Origin: Hydractinia symbiolongicarpus
Lineage: Eukaryota > Cnidaria > Hydrozoa > Anthoathecata > Hydractiniidae
Assembly (NCBI RefSeq): GCF_029227915.1
Contig: NC_079884.1
Location: 26,660,001-26,724,000 of the forward strand
Direction: 5' to 3'
Length of the DNA: 64,000 bases
This document shows positions 16,301 through 58,358 of the stretch, piece by piece (within the stretch, counting starts at the first letter, position 1; every line of letters starts with the position of its first letter). A model generated the notes under the pieces. That model was not told where the DNA came from and did no database searches. It saw only the letters and a list, made by a program, of their open reading frames with translations. Made by a program: the position numbers and the translations under genes.

Positions 16301-19200
16301 ATGTAGCTAGCTACACAAAAGATTTTTCAAGGCATTCTGTCATTTTAAATAAAGATAGCTAGCTAGCTATTTGGACCTTCCATAACAGTGAACAGTCAAG
16401 ACTTGAGTATATAGCTAGTTAGGTATGTAAGGCATTGCATGTTGGTTAAATATGTTGTCGCAACAAACAGAAAACTGTAATTCATAAATAAATTTCTGAA
16501 ATGTTCAGGTTTCTTTTATCGAATGGGAACCTATTTTTCATAAATAAATTTTAACCTAACGGTTTCTTTTATGAAATAACAAAATTTGGGAGAGTAGTGA
16601 TAGCCAGAAGTAATATTCGCGTGGAGCGGGAAAACCTAAAGTCTTTGTCCAGGTTAAGACTCAGTAAAGGGTAAACTGTGTCACACGGAATAATGTGTAA
16701 TGTGTTACAAATCAAGTGGAGCGCTTATTGCATTAAAGATACAGTATATTTTTCATAAACCAACATTCACAGGACTTATGATGAAGCCTATTGGTACTTC
16801 TGCAAAGCAAATACAGTTTAGCATTTTTCATTTTGCATAATAGGTTCCTGGGGATATTCAAAAATTAATTGTGAGTGGCACTAGGCTGAGCGATTAGTGC
16901 AAGTAAACGTGTTGCAGATCCAGGTGGACAAAAAAATAACTTCTCACCACTTTGTATTTATACGGCATAAAATTTAGATTATGTATTTGGCACTGTGCCT
17001 TAGAAGCACATCCCACTTTTTCTGAGCTGGATAAGGAATTTGGTCCTAAACCTAGGACACATTTTATGTTTAAATTATTTTTAATCCTGAGAATCACTTT
17101 TAATGTTTTCTGTACACATAGCTTGTCATAATTGATATGCTGTCAAAAACAGTTTATCAGCGTCTCCAAAAATGGATAAATTCAGCAACTCAGAAACTAT
17201 GATAGTAGTAAAAAAAATTTTTGGGTTTATTTCATCAAACTGGTCTAAAAACATTTAGTACTAAGTTTCAAGTCATTATTTCAATTTTTACTGAAGTAAT
17301 AGGACTTTTACTTAGTATAGTTTTAGCATAGTTTTTCATACCACTGACACCAAAATGGCTGCAGGGACTAATCGGTTTGAAATTAATTTATAATATTTTA
17401 AAAAGTTGTTGCATAGCTTATGTATATGACATCAAGATAAGGATTAAAAAGTTACTGTGGGACATGGGTTTTAAACCTTAAAAATTTCCAGCGAGAAATT
17501 TGAAAACTAATAAATGACAAAATCGCAAAAGTTTATCTTAAAAATTTTAATTTTTGTTAATGTGAAAGTAATTTACATGAAAAGATTTCTGATGTTTGTT
17601 GTGAAGAAATCTTCCATATTACCCATATGGGATAACTTGATGAACAATGAATTTTCCTGCAGGTGTTCTCAAATATGTGTTTAATATAATTTTAAAAACT
17701 GTGATGTAATTTTCCTTTTAAGTTTTGACTTTTAACCCAGCCAAAAAGCTCAGCCTTGTCCTTTCATACTTAGTCTAGCTAGCCAGGGCCAAAAAGTTTA
17801 ATATTCAAACTTGACCTATTTTACTAAGTATTAAGTAATAAAGGCTAGGATAATCCTAAATCTAGCTATAGGGTAGCTAAGCTACCTGTAGGAACAATAT
17901 CAAACAACGTCGAGGCTGTTATCCTTTGTAAACAAACCCAGTGGTATTTTGTAATAAGTACCAAATTTTATGTGTGCATTTATTGGACTAATGAGTGTAA
18001 CCAAAGCGCCCTGTACGTAAATCCTAAAAATTTATGTCATTGGCTCACTATTTACGACTGACACGTAACAAAGACACCGTACTTTGCTATTTTCCGTAAC
18101 CTACACCGAGATTTGGGTGTGATATATATCAGAATTAATTGTCTTTAAGTAAAGCTAAATTAGCAAAAACTCACCTAAAACTACATAATATGACAGGTTT
18201 AAAGTTGAAAAACAAAGATTCTAAGAAAAATTCAGCCCCTATTTATGTTTAGGGGACTGGGTGAACGGCGTGTTTTCCCTTCAATTATAATGGCTACTAT
18301 GAAAAATACGAGCCAGTAATTGGTTTAAACCGTAAGAACATTTTAGACAAAATAATAGATTTTCCTCGCTTTATCCTCTACTTCTCCATTTATTTTTATA
18401 TTTTTTATTTAAAAATTTTTAAAGCAATATTACGAAATAAGATTTTAAAATAATGAAGAAACAGGAGACCATTTTATAATTTTTAGTTAACAAAGAAGAA
18501 CTTCTGTTACTTAGGAGATATGTTACTTAGGTGATATGTTGGGCAGTAAAGAGGGTGTTGGAAGAAGTGTTACTTGCAGGATAGGTTCTGCTTGGAAAAA
18601 GTTCAGAGAGTTGCTTCCTTTGTTGACTAGCAGAGTCTTGTCAATTGAGTTAAAAGGTAGGATGTATGAGGCCTGTGTAAGAAGTGTTATGTTGTACGGT
18701 AGTGAGACATGGGCAGTGAAGCAGGAAGATCTTGACCATTTAGAAAGGAATGATATGAGAATGGTTAGGTGGATGTGTAACGCCAGTCTGAGAGACAGAA
18801 AGAGTTCACATGAGCTAAGAAGCAGGCTAAGTATCCGTAGAATTAAAGATGTTATCCAGATAAGAAGATTGAATTGGCTGGGGCACTTGAAAAGAATAGA
18901 GGAGGATAATTGGGTAGGACAGTGTAGAGACTTGATAGTTCCTATGGCAAAGCTCAGAGCCAGAGCGAGAAAGACTTGGCAGGAGGTTATAGACAGACTT
19001 GATACAAAGGAAGTTGAGTTGAGGAATGATGGTGATGGTAATGGTGATGGTGATGGTGATGGTGATGGTGATGGTGATGGTGATGGTGATGGTGATGGTG
19101 ATGGTGATGGTGATGGTGATGGTGATGGTGATGGTGATGGTGATGGTGATGGTGATGGTGATGGTGATGGTGATGGTGATGGTGATGGTGATGGTGATGG

Positions 19201-19277
<77 letters not shown>

Positions 19278-22200
19278 AGACACACGAGTGAGTCAGAGAA
19301 AATCTCTCAAATAATTCCTCAGAACTAACATCAACTAAATAAGGACAAAACTAGCGTGGTCACGTCCTATCCTCTTAAATAGTAAAACATTTCAAAAGTA
19401 TTTACGAATAATAATCACATGAGTAAGGAACAATAAAAGCAATATCAAAACAGAAGGCGCGGTCGATATCTAGACCACAAAAAAATCGTGTGCGACATAG
19501 CGCCATTTTCCCACTTCAACTATTCTGATTTTCGGTTGGTGGGAAAAGTCATAGTGGGTCTCCTGGCGAGAGCATTTAGGACGTTTCATAACCTTTTGTC
19601 TTATGCAAAAACGCATTCAAAAAATGCCTACAATTATTTGTTAAGTGCTTAATTATATTTTCATTTTTCTATATGACGTAGTAAGTCACAAGCTTCAAAT
19701 AACCTGATATATACAGGTTTTTGTTTACATTTTAGGTAGTGCTAAATTATTTACGATTAAGTATTTGTAGTGTTTTATGCATCTTTTGTGAAGTTTTATG
19801 TTTGAAACTTCTGGATTTCGTCAGTTATTTTCTATTCAAAATTTTTTGCGTAATTAACGAAAATGAAATTTAAAGGGCCATAACGGCGTGTAAAATTACA
19901 TCTTATAACTACAAATGTTATGTGATATGCTCACAGAAGTTTGATTTGAGAAAAAGTCAGCAATGCGATTTAATTCCGAATTATGCTTGGATTTTCAAGA
20001 TATTACAAAAAGTTATATTGTTGTTCAACACAAACAAGAATAAAAGAGTTTCTACCAAATTTTATTTCTCCGGTCCGTGGAATACACCACTAAGCAGACT
20101 GTGAAAATTTTGGTTTGGACTCGACAGAAAAGTGAAAATCACATTGATTTTAAAGTAAAAATTCTACCAAAAAAAAATATTTCCTGCATAATCCAAGATT
20201 GCTGCATTTCAGATAAAAATTTCAGATAAATTTGGAAAAAAAGGACTTAAAAAGCGCGCAGATCAACGAAATATTATTTATTTCACATCGTAACACAGAT
20301 TAATGTATCACACTCTGTTTTCTCTAAAGTTATTGATTTGACATGGCACTTCTACATGTGTTGCCTTGTGTTTAAGAAACGACTTGGTCAATACTGGAGA
20401 ATATCAAGGTGGAACTATAAACACATATAAAATTAAAGAGAAAAGTTGACCTCCTTCACTTACACACAAATACGAAAAAAGTGTGATACCTTTTTATATA
20501 CCGCCAGGTATATAATCAAAATAATCTATTTTAAGATTCTCACCTAGTAGAAAGCCTAACTTAGAGAAAGCAGAAAATAACTCTTCTTTCATTTCATAAA
20601 ATTTCACTCGTGATCACACGATGACCTTTTTTTCTTGTTTGGCGCTTCTTCTACAGTGCAAATTATATCGTAATGGCACTGTGCGGAGTGCAATTATTCT
20701 AGAATCTTAACTGCACTCTTTAAGGAGCGCCGATAATTTAAATATTTATTTTCTTGCGTTTTATGATAAGTGAAAAAAAGATATCTTTGCGATGAATTGA
20801 ACTAATTATAAATCGGGTAGTAAAAAAATCTAAACATTGAAATTGACATGCTGTGCTACTCTTACAAAAATAGTTCATTGTGTGATTAGCTCGTAATGGA
20901 ACGTTTACTCGTGCAATTAGAAATAATTGAACTCGTAATTTTTTGGCTTTTTAAATTTATCCTTGTCCTAACGGACTCGGATTAAAAGCAAATACTCGTT
21001 CGGATATTTCCTAATTGCACTCGTAAACGTGCGATTACATATACTAACACTTCTTTCATTTCATGAAATTTTACAACAAACTCTTATATTCCATATTTGA
21101 ATTAATTTTTTTCTTTAGACCAATGGGTTTTATTGGAACGTAATGTTTGTTTTGGGGCACGTATGAACGAATTTGCAACATTTAAAGTACTAAATAGTGC
21201 ATTGTTGGCTGGTGTAAAATTGGTGCATGTGGGTGGACCTGGTGTGACATGTATGCAAGGAGCGATACCGTCAAACTGGGGATGTGACCGTGGTGAATAT
21301 ATTCGCATTGTCATTACAGATCATCAAAATAATACTATTTTTCCATCCACGCAATATTACAAGAATGACGGCTACTTTTCTGTACCAGGATACAACGCCA
21401 ACTCTCCCTACTTGATTTTTGATGAAGGTAATCACACTGTTCAGATGGGAGAAGAACTCAGGCTGCATTATTCCGAGACCTTGTATGGTCCGAATCCCAA
21501 TAATAATGGTGGTGAATCCTGCGCTGATATTTACGTCAAACTTTGTGACATGCAATAACGGATTTATTCTTCTTTAGTAATACAAGGTATTTACGGTAAA
21601 TCTTCTAATGTCTTTGCACGTTTAAACACATCTCATTAAACAAAACTAATCGACACTGCTCTTTTTTATTCATTAAAAATCATTTTGAATAATAAATTTA
21701 ATTGTTTTTCAAACCATGTTTCTATGTTTTTGTAAAAGCCTTTGATGGAAGACAATTTTTAAAATGCGTAAAGAACTCGTTTTAATTGATTTATGCTTGC
21801 TCTTTCAAGCCTTTTTTTCAGAATTCACATTTAAATATTGAAGGTTTTCAACGTAATCACTTAATAAGATGTAAATATTATTGTTGGTGTTGTAATTGTT
21901 GGTGTTGTGTAGTCAGGTTGATGTTGAAACCTTCTATCACGTAGATTTTACACCTTGCAAGCTGTTTTGAGTAAGGTTTTAAGAACTTTTCTGGAAACTG
22001 TTTTTTTTGCATTTTCAGTTTAATTTTTTTGGTAGAAGGGCAGGATTCAATATACTGAAATATTTGCTCATGTCTTCAAAATTTAAATGAGGTTTGTCAA
22101 AATTATTCCGATATTTGAAAACGAATTATTTGACAGAGCAATTTTTTGCGTGTGGATGGCAATGATCATAATCAGGTCTTTTGAACTTACTGGAATTAAA

Positions 22201-26109: not shown

Positions 26110-27748
26110 TCATAAATCCTTTACATATCTCATACAGTTTTCTAATGTTTCATCTTTCTGCCAACCACCAGCGTATTCTACAATATACTTCACATACTTA
26201 AACACATGTTCAGCCCTCTTGGTGTTCTCCACACCTTGTCGATGAATCATAGAAAGGTTGAACTTATTTGTGGAATAAATCATTAATTCCATAACATCCC
26301 AATTTTTTATCCATAACCCTCCAACGCAGTGAATGGACTCAATAGCAAACTCTCCAAAATCAATACAACCTGGAAATCTAAAGATAAAAAAATATAGTGA
26401 AATAAGAAGCAAACTATGTTCAGATTCTATAAGTTGGTGCTAAAATTTAAGTCCTAAATTCAACTTTTATTCACACACTAGATAATGGCATCTACAACTT
26501 AGAATTGTATGGAATATTATAACCAGTGTATTTTAACTTCTTGTTTTATTTAACAAACATTCCATGACAATGAAACAAATTAATTCAATCTCAAATACTG
26601 AATGCAAGAATGCAAGAAAAAAAAATTAAAAACATGCTTTATGAAACAACATCTTACCTTCTCATGTTAGACACACAAAATTGTTGTGACACTCCAAACT
26701 TCTCCATTGCAGTTTTCTTTTCTTCTGAATTACAAACATTCTCATTACATGCAAAATCAAACAAATGAAACTTATGATTGTCACTCATTTTTTCCAACAA
26801 AGTCTCTCTGATTTGTCTAGCCAACTCCCAAAATGTTGTAACTTTTTTAATAGAGCAGCAAAGTAGAAATTGTGTCACTGATAGATTACAGCAATTACTA
26901 GCAGTATTATTGGATACTCTATCCCTAAGATTAATAGGTATGTTAACACTCACATTCAGCTGTTCAGCAGAGACGGCTTTAGCTCCAAATATGTTGCCAC
27001 CAAACCCGAAAAACATGGAAGCAGTAAGCGCTGCTCCTACAGAAACTTTGTAATAACGACATGCTTTCAGGAAATTTGCATACACATTATTAGTACTTGT
27101 GTAATACAAAGCTTCAGTCACATTGATTTCTTCAAATGGTAGGGAACAATTTAAAGACTTGTAAACACCTCTTGTGTAAGTCTCATAATTTTCTTTCAAC
27201 TTCTCATGTGTATCAGTCAATCCTGATAAAGCCATGTCATCAACAGATGGTGGGGGTGAAAAAGGTGTGGTATCGAGTTCTTCACCTTCACACAGTTGCT
27301 TGTACGCTTTCAAAATATCATGAACTATAGTCATCCCATTAGTACCATCTGCAGCATAATGCATGTAAACAGGAATTAAGTAAGCTGATACATTTGATTG
27401 CTTGATAAAAAAAACTTTTAATGCAGAATAAAATTCACACTTCAACGGTTCACGAAGAAGTGAACTAGAATATCTCAAACAAATATCTTTCCAATTATAT
27501 TCATCTGGTAAAACTTCAAAAACATCTTCGATCTTTTCCAATGGAACAAACTTCCAGTTTCCATCATCAATTTTTTTTACGCCAGCATTGAAATTAGGCT
27601 GGACAGTAATAAAGTGATACACAGCCTTTTTCAGCAAGTCAGTGTTGATTGATGACTTTGTAGACAGTAGTGTTGGTACAACAACATTGCAGATTGCAGG
27701 TGGAGCAATTTTTCTTTCTAACCTACACAAATATCTTTTTTGACTCAT
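26110..27748 (-). CDS. HxxxDG acyltransferase (condensation / alcohol-acetyltransferase superfamily)
   Basis: Two coding exons, 27748-26658 and 26377-26110, join in phase (AG|A) to 452 residues. The enzyme class transfers acyl groups from CoA or carrier thioesters to an alcohol or amine; the substrate cannot be read here. The catalytic motif HYAADG (His130, Asp134, Gly135) is followed by a TNGMTIVHDIL helix typical of the family's first lobe. A second-lobe block NVSVNIPINLRDR lies near residue 270, and CIDFGE near 367 resembles the structural DFG segment. The length matches the two-lobed fold. An acceptor (TTTTACAG) at 27773 suggests that a 5' UTR intron precedes the ATG. No signal peptide is evident. 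Relatives are bacterial PapA/NRPS condensation domains and fungal alcohol acetyltransferases; an animal version of this kind is less often described. Confidence 0.75.
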
Positions 27749-28163
27749 TTTACGAAGCAGGGTAATTCAAATCTGTAAAAAAAAAGTTATTCGCTTGTAT
27801 GTTATTTTTTACTTCGTTAAAGCACCGTATGATTTTATAACCATATAAATTGTTTTTACAACACATTTATAACAAGCATAAATACTTCTTATAGGTATAT
27901 CAAGGCTTGTCATGCTGGAAGCGAAACAAATTATATAGCATACTTCTTAGACACCTAGTAAGCAACACCTCAGTCAGGTTGACCACAGATTTAAAACTTG
28001 ACAAGTTTAAAGATTTTAGGAAAATTTAGGAGTTATTTGGGTCATATTTTTAGAAACACTAAACAAATGTAATTTTGCTAAAATTTTAAGAGGAACTGAA
28101 ATTTAATAATAATCAAACCTTTCCTTTTTTAAATGTCAATTAGGCTGCTTAATTCAAATTGCA

Positions 28164-30218: not shown

Positions 30219-30827
30219 AAAATGCTCATTAAATAAACAATCGTGATCCTAAAATTATAAGTTTTTCATATTTTTACCTGAGTCTATATCATAAATATTG
30301 TTTTGATTCTCACAACAGTTTTTTTGAATGATTCAAAGTTTTATTGCATAACTTCGTCTCATCTCACTGGTTTCGAGCATGTCGTTTGATCAAATAATAA
30401 ATTATATGTTACAAAGAATGATTTTCCCATAGAACTGACGTGTTTCTATGGTTCTTTTGTTGTTGATTCTTTCTAACTATTGCGAAGTTGACAAAAATTA
30501 ACAAGGACAATAAAGCCAGTCTCAAAACAGTTCCTAAGTGTGAGAAGGAGTTCAATTGTAAATTTGAATTTGTTTTAACTGGCAACGATGTCACATACGT
30601 TGTAAAGTGTGTAAAAGATGGGAATTAAAGGGAAACTAAGGTCAAAAAAAAATGTTGTTAAAAAAAAATTAAGAACGTTGTATAACATCTAAATAAACTA
30701 TTGAAAAAAAATTAACTCTTAATTTTCATTATTTAGGCTGTTTTAGCCCATTAAAGTTCTAAGGTTTTCTGAAATTAACCGTGTACTCCATTCACGGTTC
30801 CTCGTGAACCATACAGAATTATGACGT

Positions 30828-31655
30828 ATGAGCTGCGAGACTCAAAATCACTTAGTCATGGATAGCAGCGAAGAAAGTAGTTGTGCTAGTGAACATAGCG
30901 AAGTATATAGTTCTGAAACAGATGAAAGTATTTGCAAAGGGTTTTATGATAACGAACCTGAATATACTGAAAGTCAGTTGAAAAACTTTTGTTCATCAAA
31001 AACTGCGAATGATATTTCAGACGACGACGAAGATGAGGATTTAGACTCAAGCAGGTTAGAAAACTTACATTGGTGTAAGTGTAAAAAATGTGATATACAC
31101 GAGTTAATGACTGTTAAAGAATGCAAGTGTTGTTTGGAGTTTACAACTTTACTGGGAGAAAAGCTGGAAGAGAATACATGTATTACCTTGCATAAAGATT
31201 TTAATATTCTTTGTTTAAATCGCACCGTATTAGAGACAGCAAGCATTAGACATCGCAGATATCAAAATAATTTCAAGGATATAAAATCTTTTCAAAACAA
31301 GTAAGCTTATTATTCTACCTTTCAAAACAAATATAAAATATTACTTCATATGCAAAAAAAAAATGCGTTCTTTATCTACATAAAAGTTCGTTTACTGAAT
31401 GTGAGTCAAAGAATATTTAAAAATATATATACAACATTTTGTAAGGCCTAGGTTCCACAACAACAAAACATATATTCTTTTTAGACAACTACGCTTTCAG
31501 CATACAGACAATATACGGCTTGGGTGCATTACTATGAAACACTGGGAAAAGGATGTAGAGTTGTTATACCGGCATGCGTTGTGAAAAAAATTCGTGAAAG
31601 TTTCCCAGAAAAAGATGGAAAATATACAGGATTCAAAGCTTTTGTAGATTTGTAA
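30828..31655 (+). CDS. P2X7-receptor C-terminal ('ballast') domain-like protein, probably frameshifted
   Basis: Exon 1 (30828-31300) has an acidic N-terminus, then a cysteine cluster WCKCKKC (residues 82-88) and ECKCCLEF (99-106), then CITLHKDFNILCLN. Exon 2 (31485-31655) encodes AYRQYTAWVHYYETLGKG, followed by VVIPACVVKKIRESFP and DGKYTGF before TAA. This order and these motifs are those of the zinc-binding cytoplasmic domain of the P2X7 receptor; no channel part is present. The donor GTAAGC (31301) and acceptor TTTTTAG (31484) are good. Joined there, however, the frame is one base off from the conserved exon 2 frame. That fits a one-base loss in the T-run near 31494-31497, an alternative splice, or a sequencing error. 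The gene lies inside the TTAA element. Confidence 0.75.
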
Positions 31656-32008
31656 AATCTGTAATTTAATACGGTAGTGCCATCCATGTTAATAAATTCG
31701 TAAGTTTTGTGTTTAAAAATAGTTGGAACTGCTCCACAAAGTAGCTCTTTCCGTTTCGATGGTATCCCCGTTAGACGTCCTTTTAAATCATCTTTAATGC
31801 AGTCAGGATGGAAGTGGTCTTCACATACAACTTTATTTTTCCCAAATGGAAATGTTTCTACATTAAATCCAGTACCAATATTATGCAACCATTGTGCTGC
31901 GCGAAGTTTTTCAGTTGTATTCACTGGCTTTGGGATCATGAAAAAACTTTTTTTAGCAGTTACTCTCCCAGTGGTTTGCGAACATCCATATGCCAGGCAA
32001 CTTGGCAT
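31532..32008 (-). CDS. THAP zinc-finger protein of the TTAA element
   Basis: The ATG at 32008 starts MPSCLAYGCS; I preferred it to an in-frame upstream start because THAP domains begin this way. C4, C9, C62 and H65 form the C2CH zinc site. QWLHNI, VCEDHF and AVPTIF (93-98) complete the roughly 98-residue THAP domain, a sequence-specific DNA-binding module. About 60 more codons follow to a stop at 31532. The last 124 bases are antisense to exon 2 of the P2X7-domain gene, so that tail may be partly non-functional. I see no transposase domain. It probably binds the ends of the element (inference). Confidence 0.8.
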   Translation of the reverse strand: MPSCLAYGCSQTTGRVTAKKSFFMIPKPVNTTEKLRAAQWLHNIGTGFNVETFPFGKNKVVCEDHFHPDCIKDDLKGRLTGIPSKRKELLCGAVPTIFKHKTYEFINMDGTTVLNYRFYKSTKALNPVYFPSFSGKLSRIFFTTHAGITTLHPFPSVS

Positions 32009-32390
32009 TTTGAGTAGTAAAGACAAAATGTTTAAGAAGTAAAATTCATCTTTTATGTCTTCATACATCAAATCAGGCGAACCTTATAGTATGGTTTCAC
32101 TTACTCACTCGCGGATCATACGTCATTGCTCTCCATTGTAGAGTTTTTTTATGTACTCTAACGGAGATGTAAATAATAACCTTTTTACTCTAAAATCCTC
32201 ATAAAAATACATTTTTTTTGAAAAAAAATTTAAGGTATCTTTTTTAAATAGTATAATAAACATTTTATGAAAAAAAAAAATTTTGACCTTAGTTTCCCTT
32301 TAAAAATCAAAAATATGAAGGGATTTCAGGTGATATGGATCAGCCCAGGGACACTGTAAAATAAAAAGATAGTGTTAAAGTACACTGTAA

Positions 32391-32760
32391 TTGAGCCACC
32401 TGAACACTGGCTTTCACGGTGGATTGGGAGTTCTTATCAAAGAAAATTCGCCATGGCTCCAGGTAAATCATTGCTTAAACCACTGTCTTGAATTGGCAAT
32501 CAAGGACGCCTTCAAAAACACTGCTTTTATCAAAATTGATGAACCATTGAGTGAATTATACAAGCTGTACCAGTATTTATCAAAGCACATTTAAGAGCTT
32601 AGAAGATGTGCTTGGGATGATGAAATACCAAAACCAACAAAAGCAACTGGGACTCGTCGGATTGATTATAAAATCAGAGCAATGTTCATTGTTCTGGAGA
32701 ATTATAGTGTGTATTCCAACACATTGAATCTCTTTCGCAAATAGATTCTCAAGATCACAT
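32391..32760 (+). pseudogene. hAT/KIAA1586-like transposase-derived fragment
   Basis: The first frame contains NHCLELAIKDAFKNTAFIKI and SELYKLYQYL. After an in-frame stop at 32592 the sequence continues DEIPKPTKATGTRRIDYKIR and then MFIVLENYSVYSN. These are consecutive blocks of the RNase-H-like region of hAT-type and KIAA1586/zinc-finger-862-like proteins. It has at least one stop, no start context and no terminal repeats that I can identify. It begins 88 bp after the right end of the TTAA element. Confidence 0.7.
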
Positions 32761-33853
32761 ATAACATCATTCCCACCATTTACCCTGCAAATGACTGCAC
32801 AAACAACTTAAAACATGCATGTCAACACACAGCCACTTCTTTACACCTCCTTCTTCTGAATAGGTCATCGAAAACATTATACACATACAATCAAATTAAA
32901 CCAAATAAAAATGAAATTACAACACATGCTCATTCCTACACTAATACCAGAAACCATAATGTGTGGCCAACTGTCTTTACGTAAGTCAGGTAAGTATTAC
33001 ACTACACCCGTCTCCTCTTGTGACCAACAAAAACAACAATAAAAAACACGAAACATACTCCTCACTAGTTGTTCGCATTTTGTTAAAATAAATGATATAG
33101 TTTGATAATAGTGTGATTTGTGGGTGTCCTCAAACTAAAATCCCTGGTTCTAAAAATCAAAGAAATTATACAAATTTTCTTCAATAATGTTGTTCTTTAA
33201 AAAAGTCAAATCATTTCATAGAAGAGCATTTAAATGTTTGGAAAACAGTGTTGACATACAAACAATGCACTGAGTTACAAAACGACCCTATTTGACTACG
33301 TAAGTACTGTAACTTTTGCATTAAACTCTCTGATAGAGAGTATTTTGCTTACTTGTGGTACTTCATCAGAGAGGAGATGACGTATGAGCAACAATAACAT
33401 GGAAACCATTACTTAAAACACGAATTTTACAACGAGAGAATGGGAGGAGATCACAAAAGCAGCTTCACTAAAAATGGTACATGAAAAGATGCATTTGTTG
33501 GAACCATGGCATTTGTCCAGCCTGCCTGACATAACAAACATTTTACTGTGGGATGTAGGTAACAATGGTTCAAAGACTATTTTGTTAAAGATTTATATTA
33601 AGTCTCCATTGGACATCATATATCAGGTTGTAAAGACCACTCATGTGTGATACATAAAGATGTGTATTAGATGAAAATAATTTGACAACGCTGGTGTATG
33701 ATTTTATTACTGCTTGAGATAAAAATTATAATCTTCTAAGTTTAGCAATTCTACCAATAGAAAATGTTTAAATCAACAAATCATGTGTACAAATGCAGGG
33801 TTAAAACATGAGCACCTTTTCATATTGTTTACTTTGTAAATTTACTCACACTA
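32761..33853. other. AT-rich spacer downstream of the TPR gene
   Basis: No gene recognised. It should include the 3' UTR of the TTC16-like gene on the minus strand. A short ACTCTCT/AGAGAGT hairpin is at about 33325. Confidence 0.5.
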
Positions 33854-36800
33854 CTATAAATGGCTATATGAACTTGATGCCTTTATATTTATCTTTTTTT
33901 GATGAGACTTTTTAGAATGATTAGGTGGGGAAGTTATTTTTGGACCACGACTTGAAAGATCTTGCCTTGAACGGATAACAGATTCCACAAGCTCATTAAC
34001 CTAAAAATAAGAGAGTTCTTAATTTAATTAAAGGAGAACTAACCATAGCCTATGAGGTTATATGTTTTATGTTTTTTTTGCTCTGATAATTGAGATTTTT
34101 AGGTCAAAATAACCCTATAATTTTTATAAGATTTACATTATCTTGAAAAGGAAATCTACGGAAAGAGTGCTCAATACGAAAGTACAGAGCTAACATTCAT
34201 TCGTTTATTTACAAGATAAAAATAATAATATGTACATAACTCTGAGTTTCACGCTGAGCGATCATCAGACGTACACTAACTTAAAAAACTATATCAATGC
34301 CTTATACAAAAAAATAAAATACACTGTAATTAAGTCAAGTCCGGTGGGATCGTTTTAATGTTTTTCAAGAAATACTTGTTTACATGACAACAAGTAGAAA
34401 CCAGTTCCATTCCATTTATTCAATAGTTTTAAATTAGATGTGATGATATGGTACTTCTCCGTAAGAAAAAGGTTGCATGTGTTTCCACCATTTTTATAAG
34501 GAGAGGCATGGTCGATTATTCGCCAAGAAAATATCGGTTCTATACCTTCTTTCTTCAAATGCCACACGTGTTTAGACAGTTCTGTGGAGTTTGCCTTGTT
34601 TTCGTATCTAAATGTGTGTGCATGTTGGTTGTAACGGGACTTAAATGTATTTTCCGTCAAGCCTATGTAGTTTGCATCTTCTTCGTTGCTAATTGTGGAC
34701 ACGTTGCATAGATAAATTGCATGCCTATCCTGACATTTCCTGTCTAGAGGGCATGCATCTCTTTGTCTGCAGTTGCAGGTTGCGGTGTTGTTATGAGTCA
34801 CGCTATCTGAAAGAACATTCTTGTTGTGCGTTGAAATTATGGTTGAGATGTTAGATAAGCAGGTGTAGCTTACTTTTAACGTGTTCCGGTTAAATAACTT
34901 ACGCAGCTTAAGATTCACATTATATTATGTTATTATGCCGGACAATGTAAAAGCTTTTATTTTTACAAAAAGTTAATTTTTTTATTATACATTTTATATG
35001 TTCGGAAATATTATAAAATTTACATAAATATCTTAACAAATAATAAAAAAAATTTTAGTCAATTTATATGAAAAAAGTGTAATAGTATTCTAAAACATTT
35101 ATACCTTTTTCTTCCCCTTGATAATGCTGAAGTTGAACTGTTTGTCTTCCATACATTTTTTCAAAACAACTGCTTCTTTTGGTGGCTCAGAGATACCAGG
35201 CAAAGGTTTTACCTTATTGATATGGTCTAAAGATTACATAATTAAATAAAACAAAACACATTTAATAATGAAATGAATCTAAAATAAGAACCAGAACAAA
35301 TAAGCAGATGTTTGAAAAAGAGATATACTAGCTAGATACCTGTTTCTTTCTCATCTTTACTGTTTTCTTGAATGACTAATATCAGGGCTTCGATAATAAG
35401 CATCCCAAAATCACTTTTGATTGCTTCTTTTCCAATTGTTTGAGCAGGAAATAATCTTGCAAACATAGAAAATGCTTCTTTATTTGATGCATCGAAATAT
35501 AATGCAGATATTACATCTATTTTTGCCTCATCTATTTTCTAAAAAAGGAAAGGCATGTCATTTTTATGATAAGCGCCAAACTGAAATTAGATTTACATAT
35601 TCTACATAATGCCAGTAAACGTAAGTTAAATTGGAAACAGACACAGCAAGCAGAAATGTCACACATGTCGCAAACAGCATTTTGTTGACATGTGTTGTTA
35701 CACCACAAATAAGAAATCACAAATGAAGGCATTGGAAAAATCATGCTCCTAACAAAGGGAGAAAGAATCAATTTTTTTCTAAGGACACTGACTCTTTTGA
35801 TGGTTCCTTCCAAAAAATAAATTTCAAAAGCAACAACGAAAAAAAGTCTGAACACAGATAGCACCTACTTCTTGCATATATCTTGATCTAGCACGTGATA
35901 AATAAAAAGCTGATACAGTTATATTTAATGATATTGCTAGTGAAAAATACTCTTCTGCACGGTCATATTTCCGATCTTTATACTCCATAATTCCCAAATC
36001 GTTGTATACAACTGATAAACGTAAATTTATACTCTTGTCATTTGGAGCTAATTCTTGTGCTTGTTGGTAATCCAATAGGGCAAAATGTATATTCCCAAGC
36101 TTATAGAAGCAATCTAATAAAGAAAATTTATATTATAATATTCACTGTTGACAACACAAAATATTGTGATGCAGAAAATACATATGACGGGCAACATGTG
36201 TGAAATTAAAATGATTCTCTACAATAAACAATTCGGGCAAATACATTAGCTAAATTAAAGTAATCTGAAAGGTAGATTCATGGTGTATATAATCTTGAAA
36301 ATCATAATATTTACCCCCTCTGTTGGAATATAAAGCTTTGTCTTGTTTTTCACCTTTAATTGCTTTTTTTAACAAAGCAACAGCCTCTTCATAAAACCCC
36401 TTACTAAAAAAATACAATTTCATCTAAATAAAATCTCTAAATCACTTTAAAAAAAATGGATTTGTTCCTGAGAAATTTTAAGATATTTTTAAATACACAA
36501 AATACACAGACATTAAACTTACTTGAAACAATCCACAGCAAAATCATTAAATGTCAGTAATAACTGCTTTTGAGATGCAACATAAAGTTCCACATCAGGG
36601 TCATGGTTTAATTTTTCCATTGCTAACAACAAGTCGTCTACCGCTGCACTAAAGTCAAGATTCCGGCGATGCATACCAGCTCTAATAATAAAGAAATTAT
36701 TATTAGAAGTAACAGTAATTTGTTTTAAGCAAAAGCTGTCATTTTGCCCTAAATTTATTATGGATACACACTACACAAAAAATGACACTGTCTTTAATTA

Positions 36801-39800: not shown

Positions 39801-42800
39801 TATGGGGTCATTCACAAAAAATAATGTAGCTGGCATGCTTAAAGAAAAAGAAAGGCGGAGAAGTAGTCTAAAAGCATATCAAAGTGTACAAGGGGAAGGG
39901 GATCTTCAAAGGGCTTACATATCCCAGCTTTAGAAAATTAATGCAGTGTTATAAAAGCATATCAAAGTGTACAAGGGGAAGGGGATCTTCAAAGGGCTTA
40001 CATATCCCAGCTTTAGAAAATTAATGCAGTGTTATAAAAGCATATCAAAGTGTACAAGGGGAAGGGGATCTGCAAAGGGCTTACATATCCCAGCTTTAGA
40101 AAATTAATGCAGTGTTTTTATGCATCTTGTCTGCAAAAAATGTGTTGCTTATTTCAACTTTAACACCTTACATTGTCCACTTTTCAAGTAACATTTCATA
40201 ATTTAATAATTATTAAGTCGATTTTTGGGGAGGGGTGATGTGTACACTCGGGAAAGGGGTGGGTCGAAAGCAAAGCATACAAGGGAGTATAAGGTTGAGG
40301 ATTTATAGTACGTAAGCATTTTTTGAATAGACCTATTATAGTAGTTATTGACAAATGATTTTTGTCTGTTTTACTGGCATCTGACTGATTATTCCGTATA
40401 CTATAACTTTATTTTTGGATTGCTTATGTGACCAATTATCTTTTTTTAGGGCCAAAAAAGAACAAATTTGATGGAGCTCCTAACTGGAAAAATAAAGGAC
40501 TTGTAAATGATTAAAGGAAAATTCCTTCTGGTGCGTCACGACCAGTAAACCACAAGGATTTTTGGCTTGAAGTAAAAAAATTGCCACCGTTAACATGAAC
40601 TGATGCATACAGATTTTGTTTTTGCAGATTTAGTAGTTTTTTTAGCAGACTTTATAGATAATGCCTTTAAATTTTCCAACCTATAGATTTGATTTTAAAA
40701 TGTTAAAGTTGTAGGTCCGCCATTATGGCAACCGTTTGCCTGATTTTTTATGTTGTATGATATATACTATGTAAGCCTTTTACAAAATGTTATTTATCCT
40801 AAAATATTATTTTTTGATTGGGATTTTTTAATTCCTTTTTTAATAAATATTTATTAAATATTATTTTAATTGCTTTACAAACTTAAATAGCAGAAGTATG
40901 ATCCAATTTATAGCCAGGTAGAATGTAACAAGAAATTCAGCCATATTTCACTGAATATAATAAAACTGTGCAAAATAATCTATATTATAATACCCGTATA
41001 CGTCTGTCCGTCACGCAAACTGGTAGCTTAGCTGCACAAGTAATGAGACGCACGCAATGCAGTATAAAAAGGACTGCTGAACCCGTGGATTTTTCCACAG
41101 GCTAACGACTAGTTCTTAAAAAAACTTAGTGGAAATATTTTGTTTGATACTTTCCGGATTCTTATTATTATTGACTGTTTGCTGCTCTTAAAAAGACATA
41201 CTAGAATCGAATGTGAATGTAACTTGCAGATTTGAACCTGGCATAGAAGCTTGCGTGGGTAAGCATATGCACACGTTATCAGATTAAACCCACTGCATAT
41301 CCTTTTATTGTGCACTTCATGTGTTGGTGCAACCTCGACTCCAGGGTTTCCCAATATAAAAAGAGAAAACCAGCCCTGTGATCAAGGTTGGTGTTGGGGC
41401 TAAGTATCACTTTGGAAAACGAGGGGTGCATTTGTATTAGCTTTGAAAGAGCAACTGTCATATAACAGTAACCAAGGGGCGACAAGAAGTTGCCACTATA
41501 AACTAGTATTATTTATATTGCTTGCCAGTGGTCCTATTATGAGCTCTCTCTAAAACACAATTCTGAAGATCTTTTTTTCTTTTGTGTTGAATGGAAATCT
41601 AATGTAACTTGCAGATTTGAACCTGGCATAGAAGCTTGCGTGGGTAGCATATGCACACGTTATCAGATTAAACCCACTGCATATCCTTTTATTGTGCACT
41701 TCATGTGTTGGTGCAACCTCGACTCCAGGGTTTCCCAATATAAAAAGAGAAAACCAGCCCTGTGATCAAGGTTGGTGTTGGGGCTAAGTATCACTTTGGA
41801 AAACGAGGGGTGCATTTGTATTAGCTTTGAAAGAGCAACTGTCATATAACAGTAACCAAGGGGCGACAAGAAGTTGCCACTATAAACTAGTATTATTTAT
41901 ATTGCTTGCCAGTGGTCCTATTATGAGCTCTCTCTAAAACACAATTCTGAAGATCATTTTTTCTTTTGTGTTGAATGGAAATCTAATCTATTTATATCTT
42001 TGCAATCACATTAAGCACATTGACATGACTTGCATTTGGTAATAGAGCAGTATAGCAGGTATCATTTGTTTTAAACATAAACGATAAAGATCCGTCTCGG
42101 AGATGGAGACCTGTCACGTCACATTAATTTTAATTGGGTTTTTATAGTTTTTTCGCGCACTTTTCACATGGCTTCTAATCTCCGTACGAATAGGACAAGC
42201 GTGTGGTAAAAGTGAGAATCGAAAATATCGTAGTTCTTGATTGAAATCTTAACGTAAAGAGTTTCTTCAAGCAGCAAAAAGGAAGCAAGCGCAGTAAACG
42301 ACGCAATAGTTAGTTTTCATGTTTTATTTTGTACGTGTAATAGTATGTCTATCGACACAGGCTATATTTGTATTTATTTATGTTGTGTTTATCTTTTTGT
42401 ATCTTTGTATTTTTTCTGTTTCGTATTTAAGCTATGAAACGTCATCATCATACTGTACTAGACCAACCGATGTACCGTATTTTATTCTACCGCCCCCATG
42501 TGTTCGCATAGTTGCGTCTGCTTTCTTGTGTGCCGTACGCGCACAAAACATCATTTTTAGGTGTTATTGACATGTATTTCACAACCTAGTGGCCAAGACT
42601 TCATTATTAATTCCTGTTAAAAATATTGAAAAATGTTAAAATTAAATGCATAAATGGTATTTTACTTTTTTTATCTTCGCTACTTGCAAGCAACTGGTGA
42701 CTATTAAAATGATAAAAAATAAATTAAAAATTCAATTAATAGAACACATGCAACTATCTCCTCCCCATTGTTGCAAATTATTTTATCATACAAACTGTGA

Positions 42801-45800
42801 TTGCCGAGATATAAATGGATAACAAAATTATATAAAAATTAGAAAAAATGTTCCATACATCCCTGTTACAGACAATCTGTGACATTTATTATGTTGTTTA
42901 TTATTATTTCGGCAATCGGAGACAAGGAAGTTAACGCTGAGAGAGTCGCTAGTTCAGAGACTCAGTTCTTGTGTTTGGGTTTCACAAGTTTAAACGTCCC
43001 CCACTTGTCTCCGGCATGAACAAAAATAATGACACAGAACTTAAAAACAAACTAAAAAAGCAACCACAAAATACTCTGAATTTTTTTATTAACACGATGC
43101 GGGTTATACAAAGGTGCATGTACGTAAAACTCAATGATTGAAATTTTATGCGGGTTATACGAAGGTGCGGGCTATCTGATAGCATCTGATTTGTAACTCC
43201 CTAAAAAAGCTGAGCTGCTGGTTATACGATGTGGATGTTATATACCGGAAAATACGGTACTTGAATTTTATTAACAACATTTAATTTATTAAAGTGCAGC
43301 CACAAGCAAAAACAGACCAATTAAATAGGCTTGTGAGAGAACATTATTTTCAATTCAGTCTAAGTAATATGTGCCACAAAGCCTTCAGTGTTTAGAGTTT
43401 GCTTATTAAATCGTCCCCTAACTCTTTTAATCTCTGATTCTATTGTAATTTTTGACTTTGTAATTTGTTTTGACACTCAGCATTTGCCGACATAATTGGC
43501 AATGTATTTTCAACATCTCTAAGCTCTCAATCGTAATTATTTGCTATTGGTAATTTGCATAGCTGTCTTATAAGGGAATGTATGAAGCATTTATCCATAA
43601 AAGCTAGAGGAAAAAAATTCAGTTCATATAAATTGTGAGCTTCAACTACATTATTGAAAACGGATAATAACCACTTGTATTTTCAACATCTCTAAGCTCT
43701 CAATCGTAATTATTTGCTATTGGTAATTTGCATAGCTGTCTTATAAGGGAATGTATGAAGCATTTATCCACAAAAGCTAAAGGAAAAAAATTCAGTTCAT
43801 ATAAATTGTGAGCTTCAACTACATTATTGAAAACGGATAATAACCACTTGTATGTGTGTGAAAAAATCATATTCCACTAGCGTATTTTCCGGTATATAAC
43901 CCGTGGGTTATAAGTTGATTTTTACGACTTCCGCCGTTGGTGCGGGTTATGTGATAAGTTTTATATTTTCCGTCATTTATTGTGAAATTTAAAGTTTATA
44001 CATTTAATGAAGAAAATAGTACCAACGGGATAAAATGAGTACATTAATATACTCCATGCGCGATCATATATCTACGTAATCTTACTTCAACTACGTGATT
44101 TAATTTTTTTCACACAGTGAAATTGCTTAACTTTCTATTGCTTGCCAGTGCTATATTATTACGAGCTCTCTCTCTGAAACACAATTCTGGAGATCATTTT
44201 TCTTTTGTGTTGAGTGTAATGCTAATCATTTATATCTTTGCAATCACATTGAGCACATTGAAATGATTTGCTTCTGGTAATAGAGCAATATAGCAAGTAT
44301 CATTTTTAGGTTAAACTGACAGGTATTTCACAACCTAGTGCCCAGGACTTCCTGTTAAAAATATTGAAAAATATTAAAATTAAAGTATAGATAAAAATTT
44401 TCTTTTTTATCTTCGCTACCTTCGAGCAACAGGGGTCCACTAAAAATATCAAAAATAAATGTAAAATACAATTAATAAGACACATGCAACTATCTCCTCT
44501 TCATTGCCCCCATTCATTTTATCATGCACACTGTGACTGCTTAGATATAAATAGATAACAAAATTCTATAAACATTAGAAAAGAACCTCCGTACATCGCT
44601 GTTACAGACAATCCGTGATAATTATTATGTTGTTTATTTTCATGCCAAAAAAACTTAAATATACATAAAAAACAGAGATTTTATTTTAGGTTTATAACAT
44701 GATAGAATGGTTTTTTTGTTTGTTTTTTGTTTATTTGTTGATCTTCTGCATTAGCAGAAGATCGACAAATCAAATTAATTTTAATTCATTATTATTTCGG
44801 CAATCGGAGACAAGGAAGTTGAGACTGAGAGAGTTGCTAGTTCAGACACTCGGTTCTCGTGTTTGGTGTTCACGAGTTTAAGCATCCCCCACTTGTCTCC
44901 GGCATGAAAAAAACAGAACACACGCACATTTTTATAAAATGATTAGGGTAAGTAAAAATACGCTAAATTTTTGTCTTAACACGATGCGGGTTATGCAAAG
45001 GTGCAGGTAAGTAAAACACATCGATTGAAATTTTATGTGGGTTATATGAAGGTGCGGGCTATCTGATAGCATCTAGTTTATAACTCACTAAAAAAGCTGA
45101 GCTTCGGGTTATAAGATGTGCGGGTTATATACCAGAAAATACGGTATATTCTTTTTTAGAATTGTATAACTTTATGTAAGTTGAAAGGAATACTAACTGA
45201 AAATTTAAAAACTTGAAAAAAAATAATGCAATGTTATAAATCATGTAGCACTGCATTTACCAGAAGCTATTAAAAGGATCTACATACTTTTTCTTTACAG
45301 AGTTCTGCATTTTCCTCAAGGTTCTGATGCATGGAACCTGCTTCCTTGTTTTGAGGGTCCACGGAAAGTGCTTCTTTTACGTCAAAGTAAGACAGTGTTG
45401 ACTGAAAAAATAATAAAAAAGTCATAACTACATATTGCTCCAATGCATGGTTTCCACAATGTATACAATTGCTTTTGCTGGAACTTACATCACCAGAAAA
45501 AAGGTGGAGCCGTGCTCTTAATATAAACAAATCTGGATTATTAGATTCAACCTCCAGTCTTTCATTGATTAAAGCAAGACATTCTTGATGACGTTTTAAC
45601 GAAGCAAGGCACGATATCCTAAAATACAAAGATTTATAACATGCAAGCTTATATCACTACAAAACTTTATTGCCTGGACTATGCATTAAGAGAACAGCTG
45701 AATTGCAGCCCTCACAACTCACTTTGACAATTGGCAATTGCCGAGGCAAATGCCAAGGTATTTTTTCCATTGATTAAATTTGATTCAGCAACACTTGTGG

Positions 45801-56984: not shown

Positions 56985-58358
56985 ATGACGGAAAGTTTTT
57001 CAAAGCGAAAATTAATTTGTAAAGATCTATATGGATATTTATTAACTCTTCCACCAAGTATTTTGGATGGCTTATATGACCACCCTTTTACATGTTTGGC
57101 TGTATTCAGAGGTTTACCAGAACTTGCAAAGCATTATGTTATGAGAACATTATTCACAGAGCAATCACTTCCAGACACCTTTGTTTCAGCTTGGTGTAAA
57201 ACTGATCAAATGAAACTGCACGAGTTAGCTCTGTCTCGTTTAAAGGGTTTAAAAATTTGGACAGTTGTTAATACTGGCTCTTCGTCCATTCGATACGAAA
57301 TGAATCGGTTTTTCAGACAAAACTTAAAGATTGGTTTATGTGGCGGTGATATTGTCGAAGAAGAACCACTGAAAACAGTTGAAGAGAAGCATGCTCGCGA
57401 TGTTGATTTCTTAGATAAATATTCCAAAGAAAGATGGGAGTGTGTGTTATACTACATGACAGGATCACAAATGGGTGCAAATGCCGGTGTAAGTGAAGAT
57501 GTTGCACGAGTTTTAATTAATTCTGGTTTATTAAAATTTGATGTGAAAGAACAATCAACTTCTATTACTTCTGCAGGGTTTCAGTTCTTACTGCTTGATA
57601 CATCTTCACAAGTTTGGTACTTCATGTCGCAACATTTAGACTCAAAAGAAGGTTCGGCGTTAGTTGAATGCCTTTCCTTTTTATTCCAAATCAGTTTTTC
57701 TGTCCTTGGGAAAGATTATAATGTTAAGAATTTAACTTCAGATCAGTTCAGCTTTCTGCAGTTATTACGAGAAATTGGTCTTGCCTATCAACGCAAGCGA
57801 AAGTCAAAGCGTTTCTACCCTACTAGACTGGCAATAAATCTTGGAACAGCTGTGACTGCGAATGTTAGCACTTCTCAAAGTTTAGGTTACTTGATGGTTG
57901 AGACAAATTACAGAGTTTATGCTTATACGGATTCGATATTGCAAATAGCATTGATAAGTTTATTTACAGAAATAAAATGTCGTTTTCCAGAATTCACGGT
58001 AGGAGTTTTAAGTCGCCAAAGTGTGCAACAAGCATTGTCATGTGGTATTTCAGCCAATCAAATCATAGATTTTTTAAGAACTAGAGCTCACCCACAGATG
58101 CGGAATCATACACCAGTTTTACCGCCAACTATAACTGATCAAATAAAACTATGGGAGATGGAGAGAGACCGTTTACGGTATACTGAAGGTGTTTTGTATA
58201 ATCAGTTCCTCTCACAAACCGATTTTGAAATGCTTCGAAAGTTTGCAGAAGGAAAAGGCGTGCTTTTGTGGGCAAACAATGCTAAACGATTAATGGTGGT
58301 TTCGAAGGATGGCCACGATGATGTAAAAAAGTATTGGAAAAAAAATAAACCATCTTGA
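56985..58358 (+). CDS. GTF2H4: General transcription factor IIH subunit 4 (p52 / Tfb2)
   Basis: A single uninterrupted coding exon of 457 residues; human GTF2H4 has 462. p52 belongs to the TFIIH core, where it anchors XPB and the p8 subunit, and acts in transcription initiation and nucleotide excision repair. Recognisable blocks are DHPFTCLAVFRGLPELAKHY, GSQMGANAGVSEDVARVLIN, SLGYLMVETNYRVYAYTDS, SCGISANQIIDFLRTRAHPQ and the C-terminal QIKLWEMERDRL. The N-terminal part is winged-helix, and the C-terminal part is the p8-binding fold. An acceptor (ATTTTTAG) ends at 56984, immediately before the ATG, so the leader is probably spliced and the coding region has lost or never had introns. Confidence 0.96.
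   Translation: MTESFSKRKLICKDLYGYLLTLPPSILDGLYDHPFTCLAVFRGLPELAKHYVMRTLFTEQSLPDTFVSAWCKTDQMKLHELALSRLKGLKIWTVVNTGSSSIRYEMNRFFRQNLKIGLCGGDIVEEEPLKTVEEKHARDVDFLDKYSKERWECVLYYMTGSQMGANAGVSEDVARVLINSGLLKFDVKEQSTSITSAGFQFLLLDTSSQVWYFMSQHLDSKEGSALVECLSFLFQISFSVLGKDYNVKNLTSDQFSFLQLLREIGLAYQRKRKSKRFYPTRLAINLGTAVTANVSTSQSLGYLMVETNYRVYAYTDSILQIALISLFTEIKCRFPEFTVGVLSRQSVQQALSCGISANQIIDFLRTRAHPQMRNHTPVLPPTITDQIKLWEMERDRLRYTEGVLYNQFLSQTDFEMLRKFAEGKGVLLWANNAKRLMVVSKDGHDDVKKYWKKNKPS

Follow-up and report, generated by a model that had tools for sequence, protein, structure and literature searches.

We report a short element that very probably represents a non-autonomous Kolobok DNA transposon of the Kol0 lineage, shortened by internal deletion and lying in an animal genome. 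The element is 1,671 bp long and occupies positions 30629-32299 of the window (the whole 64,000-nucleotide stretch of DNA analysed here), or 30625-32303 when the two flanking TTAA copies are counted. It appears to be a new, otherwise unremarkable representative of a known type of animal transposon. Kolobok elements were reportedly first described by Kapitonov and Jurka in 2007. Kojima and Bao (2022, PMC9587614) describe elements of the Kol0 group as encoding, besides their transposase, a second protein, KolX, which matches the 'cytoplasmic ballast' of the P2X7 receptor. The TTAA target, the 5'-RR ends, a KolX-type gene and a THAP domain, taken together, point to membership of this group. The parts of the element, with their window coordinates, are as follows.

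30625-30628: left TTAA target-site duplication, from the end-pattern scan and the pair listing
30629-30647, plus strand: left 19-bp terminal inverted repeat (5'-AG...), a perfect match to the right end
30821-30839, plus strand: left copy of a subterminal motif (score 27.9), overlapping the first ATG at 30828; candidate promoter or transposase site
30828-31300, plus strand: KolX-type exon 1, start codon at 30828 or 30858, bearing cysteine clusters one and two; P2RX7_C below cut-off, and phmmer
31301-31484, plus strand: predicted GT-AG intron of 184 bp, from the splice-site sequence
31485-31655, plus strand: KolX-type exon 2 (AYRQYTAWVH ... IPACVVKKIR ... YTGF, stop codon included); P2RX7_C
31532-31714, minus strand: tail of the THAP frame without a recognised domain in the Pfam scan, running antisense through KolX exon 2
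31715-32008, minus strand: THAP domain (C2CH, P, W, F and AVPTIF box) by Pfam, starting beside the methionine at 32008
32108-32126, minus strand: right copy of the subterminal motif, some 100 bp upstream of the THAP start codon, an inverted match to the left copy
32281-32299, minus strand: right 19-bp terminal inverted repeat (...CT-3'), a perfect match to the left end
32300-32303: right TTAA target-site duplication, from the end-pattern scan and the pair listing

The boundaries were read directly. The perfect 19-bp inverted repeats begin with AGGGAAAC, and with TTAA included the two ends are identical, in inverted orientation, over 23 bp (30625-30647 and 32281-32303). An earlier sequence-only reading of this DNA had described both the 19-bp repeats and the TTAA on either side, and both descriptions hold. 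When the window was scanned with the 23-bp end pattern and three mismatches were allowed, two sites were found, both of them the element's own ends, against a mean of 0.00 over 100 dinucleotide-shuffled versions. Perfect inverted pairs starting with TTAA and lying 200-5000 bp apart were also listed across the window, with two at 12 bp and one at 14 bp; the only pair to survive at 14 bp or more was the element's ends, and the other 12-bp pair (42724/46275) was AT-rich. Neither the end-pattern scan nor this listing revealed a second copy within the 64-kb window, and a blastn comparison of the element with the remainder of the window gave short matches only (best E 0.025). When the flanks were joined at the empty site no long reading frame spanned the junction, which neither proves nor disproves insertion into a gene. 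Nanor is considered a likely domesticated KolX (PMC9587614), and it could be supposed that a host gene of this nanor-like kind and a host THAP gene came by accident to lie between matching TTAA ends. Set against the shuffle expectation for perfect 23-bp inverted ends, and against the way the two genes closely fill the element, the probability of this is negligible, and a chance pair of ends was rejected on the shuffles.

Kolobok-type transposases usually carry a THAP domain, and it stands at their N-terminus. In the element, the minus-strand frame with a methionine at 32008 matches the THAP profile over its full length (positions 1-87 of 87; 51.2 bits, E 2.2e-13), which upholds the earlier claim of a THAP gene, and with the KolX-type gene on the plus strand the two genes are convergent, as had also been noted. 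The residues C4, C9, C62 and H65 (C2CH), P26, W40 and F66 are all present, with AVPTIF at 93-98; C2CH, P/W/F and AVPTIF are the set listed for the THAP domains of Xenopus Kolobok transposases (PMC6004289). The best match in the PDB to the THAP part was THAP1, and it was weak (E 0.032). From its architecture, we propose that this part may be the retained N-terminus of a Kolobok transposase.

A catalytic (DDE) transposase domain was not detected by Pfam in any of the element's 14 stop-to-stop frames of at least 38 codons. At an E value of 0.1, 11 of these frames had no match, two were the KolX exons, one of which also gave a sub-threshold match to Zn_Ribbon_Topo (E 0.072), and one was the THAP frame. 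The DDD/E transposase with a C/DxxH signature that marks Kolobok was likewise not found in the frames of at least 38 codons that were scanned; this is expected for a non-autonomous copy, and the element has therefore been filed as a derivative and not as an autonomous member. The undetectable transposase core went unmentioned in the sequence-only reading, and we add it here as a correction. As no catalytic domain was found in the frames scanned, we read the element as most likely a non-autonomous copy with an internal deletion. Its whole length is less than either of two trimmed Xenopus Kolobok transposase coding sequences (2,202 and 2,421 bp in the rows cited from PMC6004289), and the tail of the THAP frame at 31532-31714 is probably the site of the internal deletion. 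We propose that a full-length parent would have had two genes, one for a THAP-DDE transposase and one for KolX, the latter with a zinc domain of the P2X7 ballast type. In the present copy both ends remain, as do the KolX gene, with its one predicted intron, and the THAP part for DNA binding; the catalytic part would have been lost by internal deletion. It could then move only with a transposase supplied in trans by a full-length relative, which would cut at the AG...CT ends and insert at TTAA.

The P2X7-type gene was confirmed in its identity and corrected in its structure, as it is split by a predicted intron at 31301-31484 and its halves are not in frame with each other under that intron. 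On the plus strand, the open frame from 30828 to 31301, taken from its methionine, matches positions 54-127 of the Pfam family P2RX7_C (22.4 bits, E 1.2e-4), and with one extra residue at the start it scores 17.3 bits (E 0.0045); in both forms scanned this first piece is under the family cut-off of 23.5 bits. The second piece matches positions 149-192 with 41.9 bits (E 1.3e-10), rising to 43.0 bits in a longer form. The first piece is assigned to the P2X7 type mainly because the joined two-piece protein matches P2X7 chains: phmmer against the PDB aligned it to residues 474-593 of P2X7 chain 9e3m_A (E 2.6e-8), and all four distinct sequences at E <= 0.01 were P2X7. The alignment pairs WCKCKKC with WCQCGSC, CIT with CIT and IPAC with LPSC (element and P2X7 respectively), which accounts for five of the seven cysteine positions; the middle CC of the element's protein (residues 101-102) was left unpaired by HMMER and fits the CC of P2X7 by eye only. 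The AYRQYTxWVH/IPxCVVxxIR motifs named in the earlier reading are present in exon 2, as AYRQYTAWVH and IPACVVKKIR. Rump et al. (2020, PMC7016195) give three clusters for the domain, PxWCxCx2C, LCCRx3GxCITTS/T and (L/I/V)PSC(C/S)x3IR. The element's protein fits the first except for P, shows the second cluster's CC and CIT at a wider spacing, and reads IPACVVKKIR at the third, where A replaces S and V takes the place of C/S. A second protein similar to the P2X7 ballast, as in Kol0, is present, as judged by comparison with P2X7 itself.

The intron is predicted to begin with the donor GTAAGC at 31301 and to end at 31484 with the acceptor TTTTTAG. With these sites exons 1 and 2 are out of frame, and an alternative acceptor ending at 31500 likewise fails to bring them into one frame. 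The mismatch may reflect either a broken copy, an assembly error or the use of other splice sites; we infer that KolX in this element was already broken.

TTAA duplications had been attributed in the earlier reading to both Kolobok and piggyBac elements. According to Kojima and Bao (2022, PMC9587614), Kolobok elements combine TTAA duplications with 5'-RR/YY-3' ends, unlike piggyBac, and since the termini here are 5'-AG...CT-3', and so of the RR/YY type, the Kolobok half of that attribution is the one favoured. Another explanation for the data is a piggyBac-type element with a KolX-like gene, as reported for a few piggyBac families. Such elements share with ours the TTAA target and a KolX-like C-terminal part, and they differ from it in end type and, as described in PMC9587614, in lacking most of the seven cysteines, five of which were paired here by HMMER, the other two being present by eye only. 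A THAP domain is, furthermore, expected in Kolobok transposases (PMC6004289), and neither a piggyBac transposase (Pfam, frames of at least 38 codons) nor piggyBac-type ends were found in the element. We consider a piggyBac identity very unlikely and disfavour it on the end type and the cysteines.

Among known systems, Kol0 (type Kolobok-1_XT, with KolX) shares with the element the TTAA duplication, the 5'-RR/YY-3' ends and a KolX-type gene. The element departs from Kol0 in being only 1.7 kb long, in the DDD/E domain not being found and in its KolX exons being out of frame under the predicted intron. The Xenopus Kolobok paper gives THAP, DDE and H2CH as the usual transposase motifs, so that THAP is usually carried, as it is here, and places AG ends at TTAA (PMC6004289). 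Xenopus Kolobok (XKol) and the T2-MITEs resemble the element in their TTAA target, their AG- or AGG-type ends and a THAP domain with AVPTIF, whereas the 10 full-length XKol copies listed in that source are 6.8-13.9 kb long with whole transposases, and the T2-MITEs are presented as a MITE family, in contrast to an element that retains two gene pieces (PMC6004289).

A subterminal 19-bp motif containing TGACGTA is repeated in inverted orientation within the element; no pair in 300 shuffles reached its score, the largest being 26.0. Its copies coincide with, or shortly precede, the starts of the two genes, and together with the compact convergent layout, the open THAP frame and the conserved cysteines they would suit a complete, selected two-gene element, in which a THAP protein free of catalysis acts as a repressor or end-binding partner, KolX is in use and the transposase comes in trans. 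This is unlikely in our view, as the one obvious intron leaves the two KolX exons in different frames, the tail of the THAP frame has no recognised domain and runs antisense through KolX, and a single copy gives no evidence of selection. It is likewise quite unlikely that this is a stable transposase-free Kolobok derivative whose THAP-only protein and KolX were selected to help or restrain a transposase supplied in trans. An internally deleted Kol0 copy is the preferred reading. The subterminal ATGACGTATGA motif was also considered as a second signature of the element and was dropped, as its 11-mer core recurs outside the element at 33377; no second similar element was visible around that position in the blastn comparison with the rest of the window. 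Further along, at 34028-34048, a single sequence, TTAAAGGAGAACTAACCATAG, resembles the element's end and has no partner in the window at three mismatches. This could be a chance likeness, or it could mark one end of a further Kolobok or MITE.

The significance of the element lies in the P2X7 receptor. KolX was matched by Kojima and Bao (2022, PMC9587614) to residues 476-595 of human P2X7, a fold with seven conserved cysteines, and these authors trace P2X7 to the fusion of a P2X4-like gene with KolX and see in nanor a second case in which KolX was probably domesticated. Earlier, the domain had been shown in several groups of animals by Rump et al. (2020, PMC7016195), who put forward its capture by a P2X4-like gene. 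The sequence-only reading had suggested that TTAA transposons may carry the P2X7-type domain and that P2X7 may have gained its tail by this route, which is supported here by one more element; a transposon origin of the tail was already published in 2022 (PMC9587614) and is not new. What the element adds is further support at the level of individual bases for that published origin, in that a single 1.7-kb copy shows perfect ends, a P2X7-type gene and an adjoining Kolobok-type THAP domain. The zinc-coordinating domain is common to the P2X7 ballast, the ZCD/nanor proteins and the element's gene. In the element, unlike P2X7, it is not fused to a channel, and it is split by the predicted intron, whereas P2X7 encodes its C-terminal domain in exon 13 (PMC7016195). 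If the predicted intron is real, either the donor KolX had no intron or the intron was lost later.

Other collections were also searched, although viral, phage and contig collections are poor places to look for animal elements and negative results there mean little. The 19-bp end had no match in viral_contigs and one in genome_contigs, in an archaeal MAG (L001), which is attributed to chance given the length of 19 bp. A less stringent form of the end pattern matched four stretches in viral_contigs, and the end-like sequence at 34028 matched none there. In the same collection 185 stretches matched KolX exon-1 patterns and six matched THAP patterns, none of which encodes a relative, and the KolX motif pattern had no match. 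KolX exon 1 had no match among phages, and NCBIfam returned nothing for KolX exon 1 or THAP.

Other genes in the window include pieces of TOP3B, a Tfb2/GTF2H4 gene, a PAN domain and TPR exons, and it is because these fit an animal that the genome was taken to be one. Tfb2/GTF2H4 lies at 56985-58358 on the plus strand in one uninterrupted 457-codon frame (Tfb2 E 4.6e-120), and TOP3B is in separate pieces. Near the element's right end, a frame at 32391-32594 has a weak DUF659-like match below cut-off (E 0.026) and is possibly an old hAT remnant. An open frame at 34355-34924 on the minus strand has no Pfam match; it looks like the GIY-YIG end of a Penelope-like element. The plus-strand frame at 18515-19279 runs into a long GGTGAT-type simple repeat, with a sub-threshold Pfam match to TrAA12 in the repeat only, and resembles the tail of a non-LTR retrotransposon. 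A single 370-codon open frame at 26654-27766 on the minus strand has a borderline match to alcohol acetyltransferase (AATase; 22.7 bits, cut-off 22). Finally, large direct repeats occupy 41204-45146, with 300 bp at 100% identity in copies 384 bp apart and several copies at 82-91% spaced by roughly 1.7-2.2 kb; a tandem duplication of recent date may lie here beside older ones.
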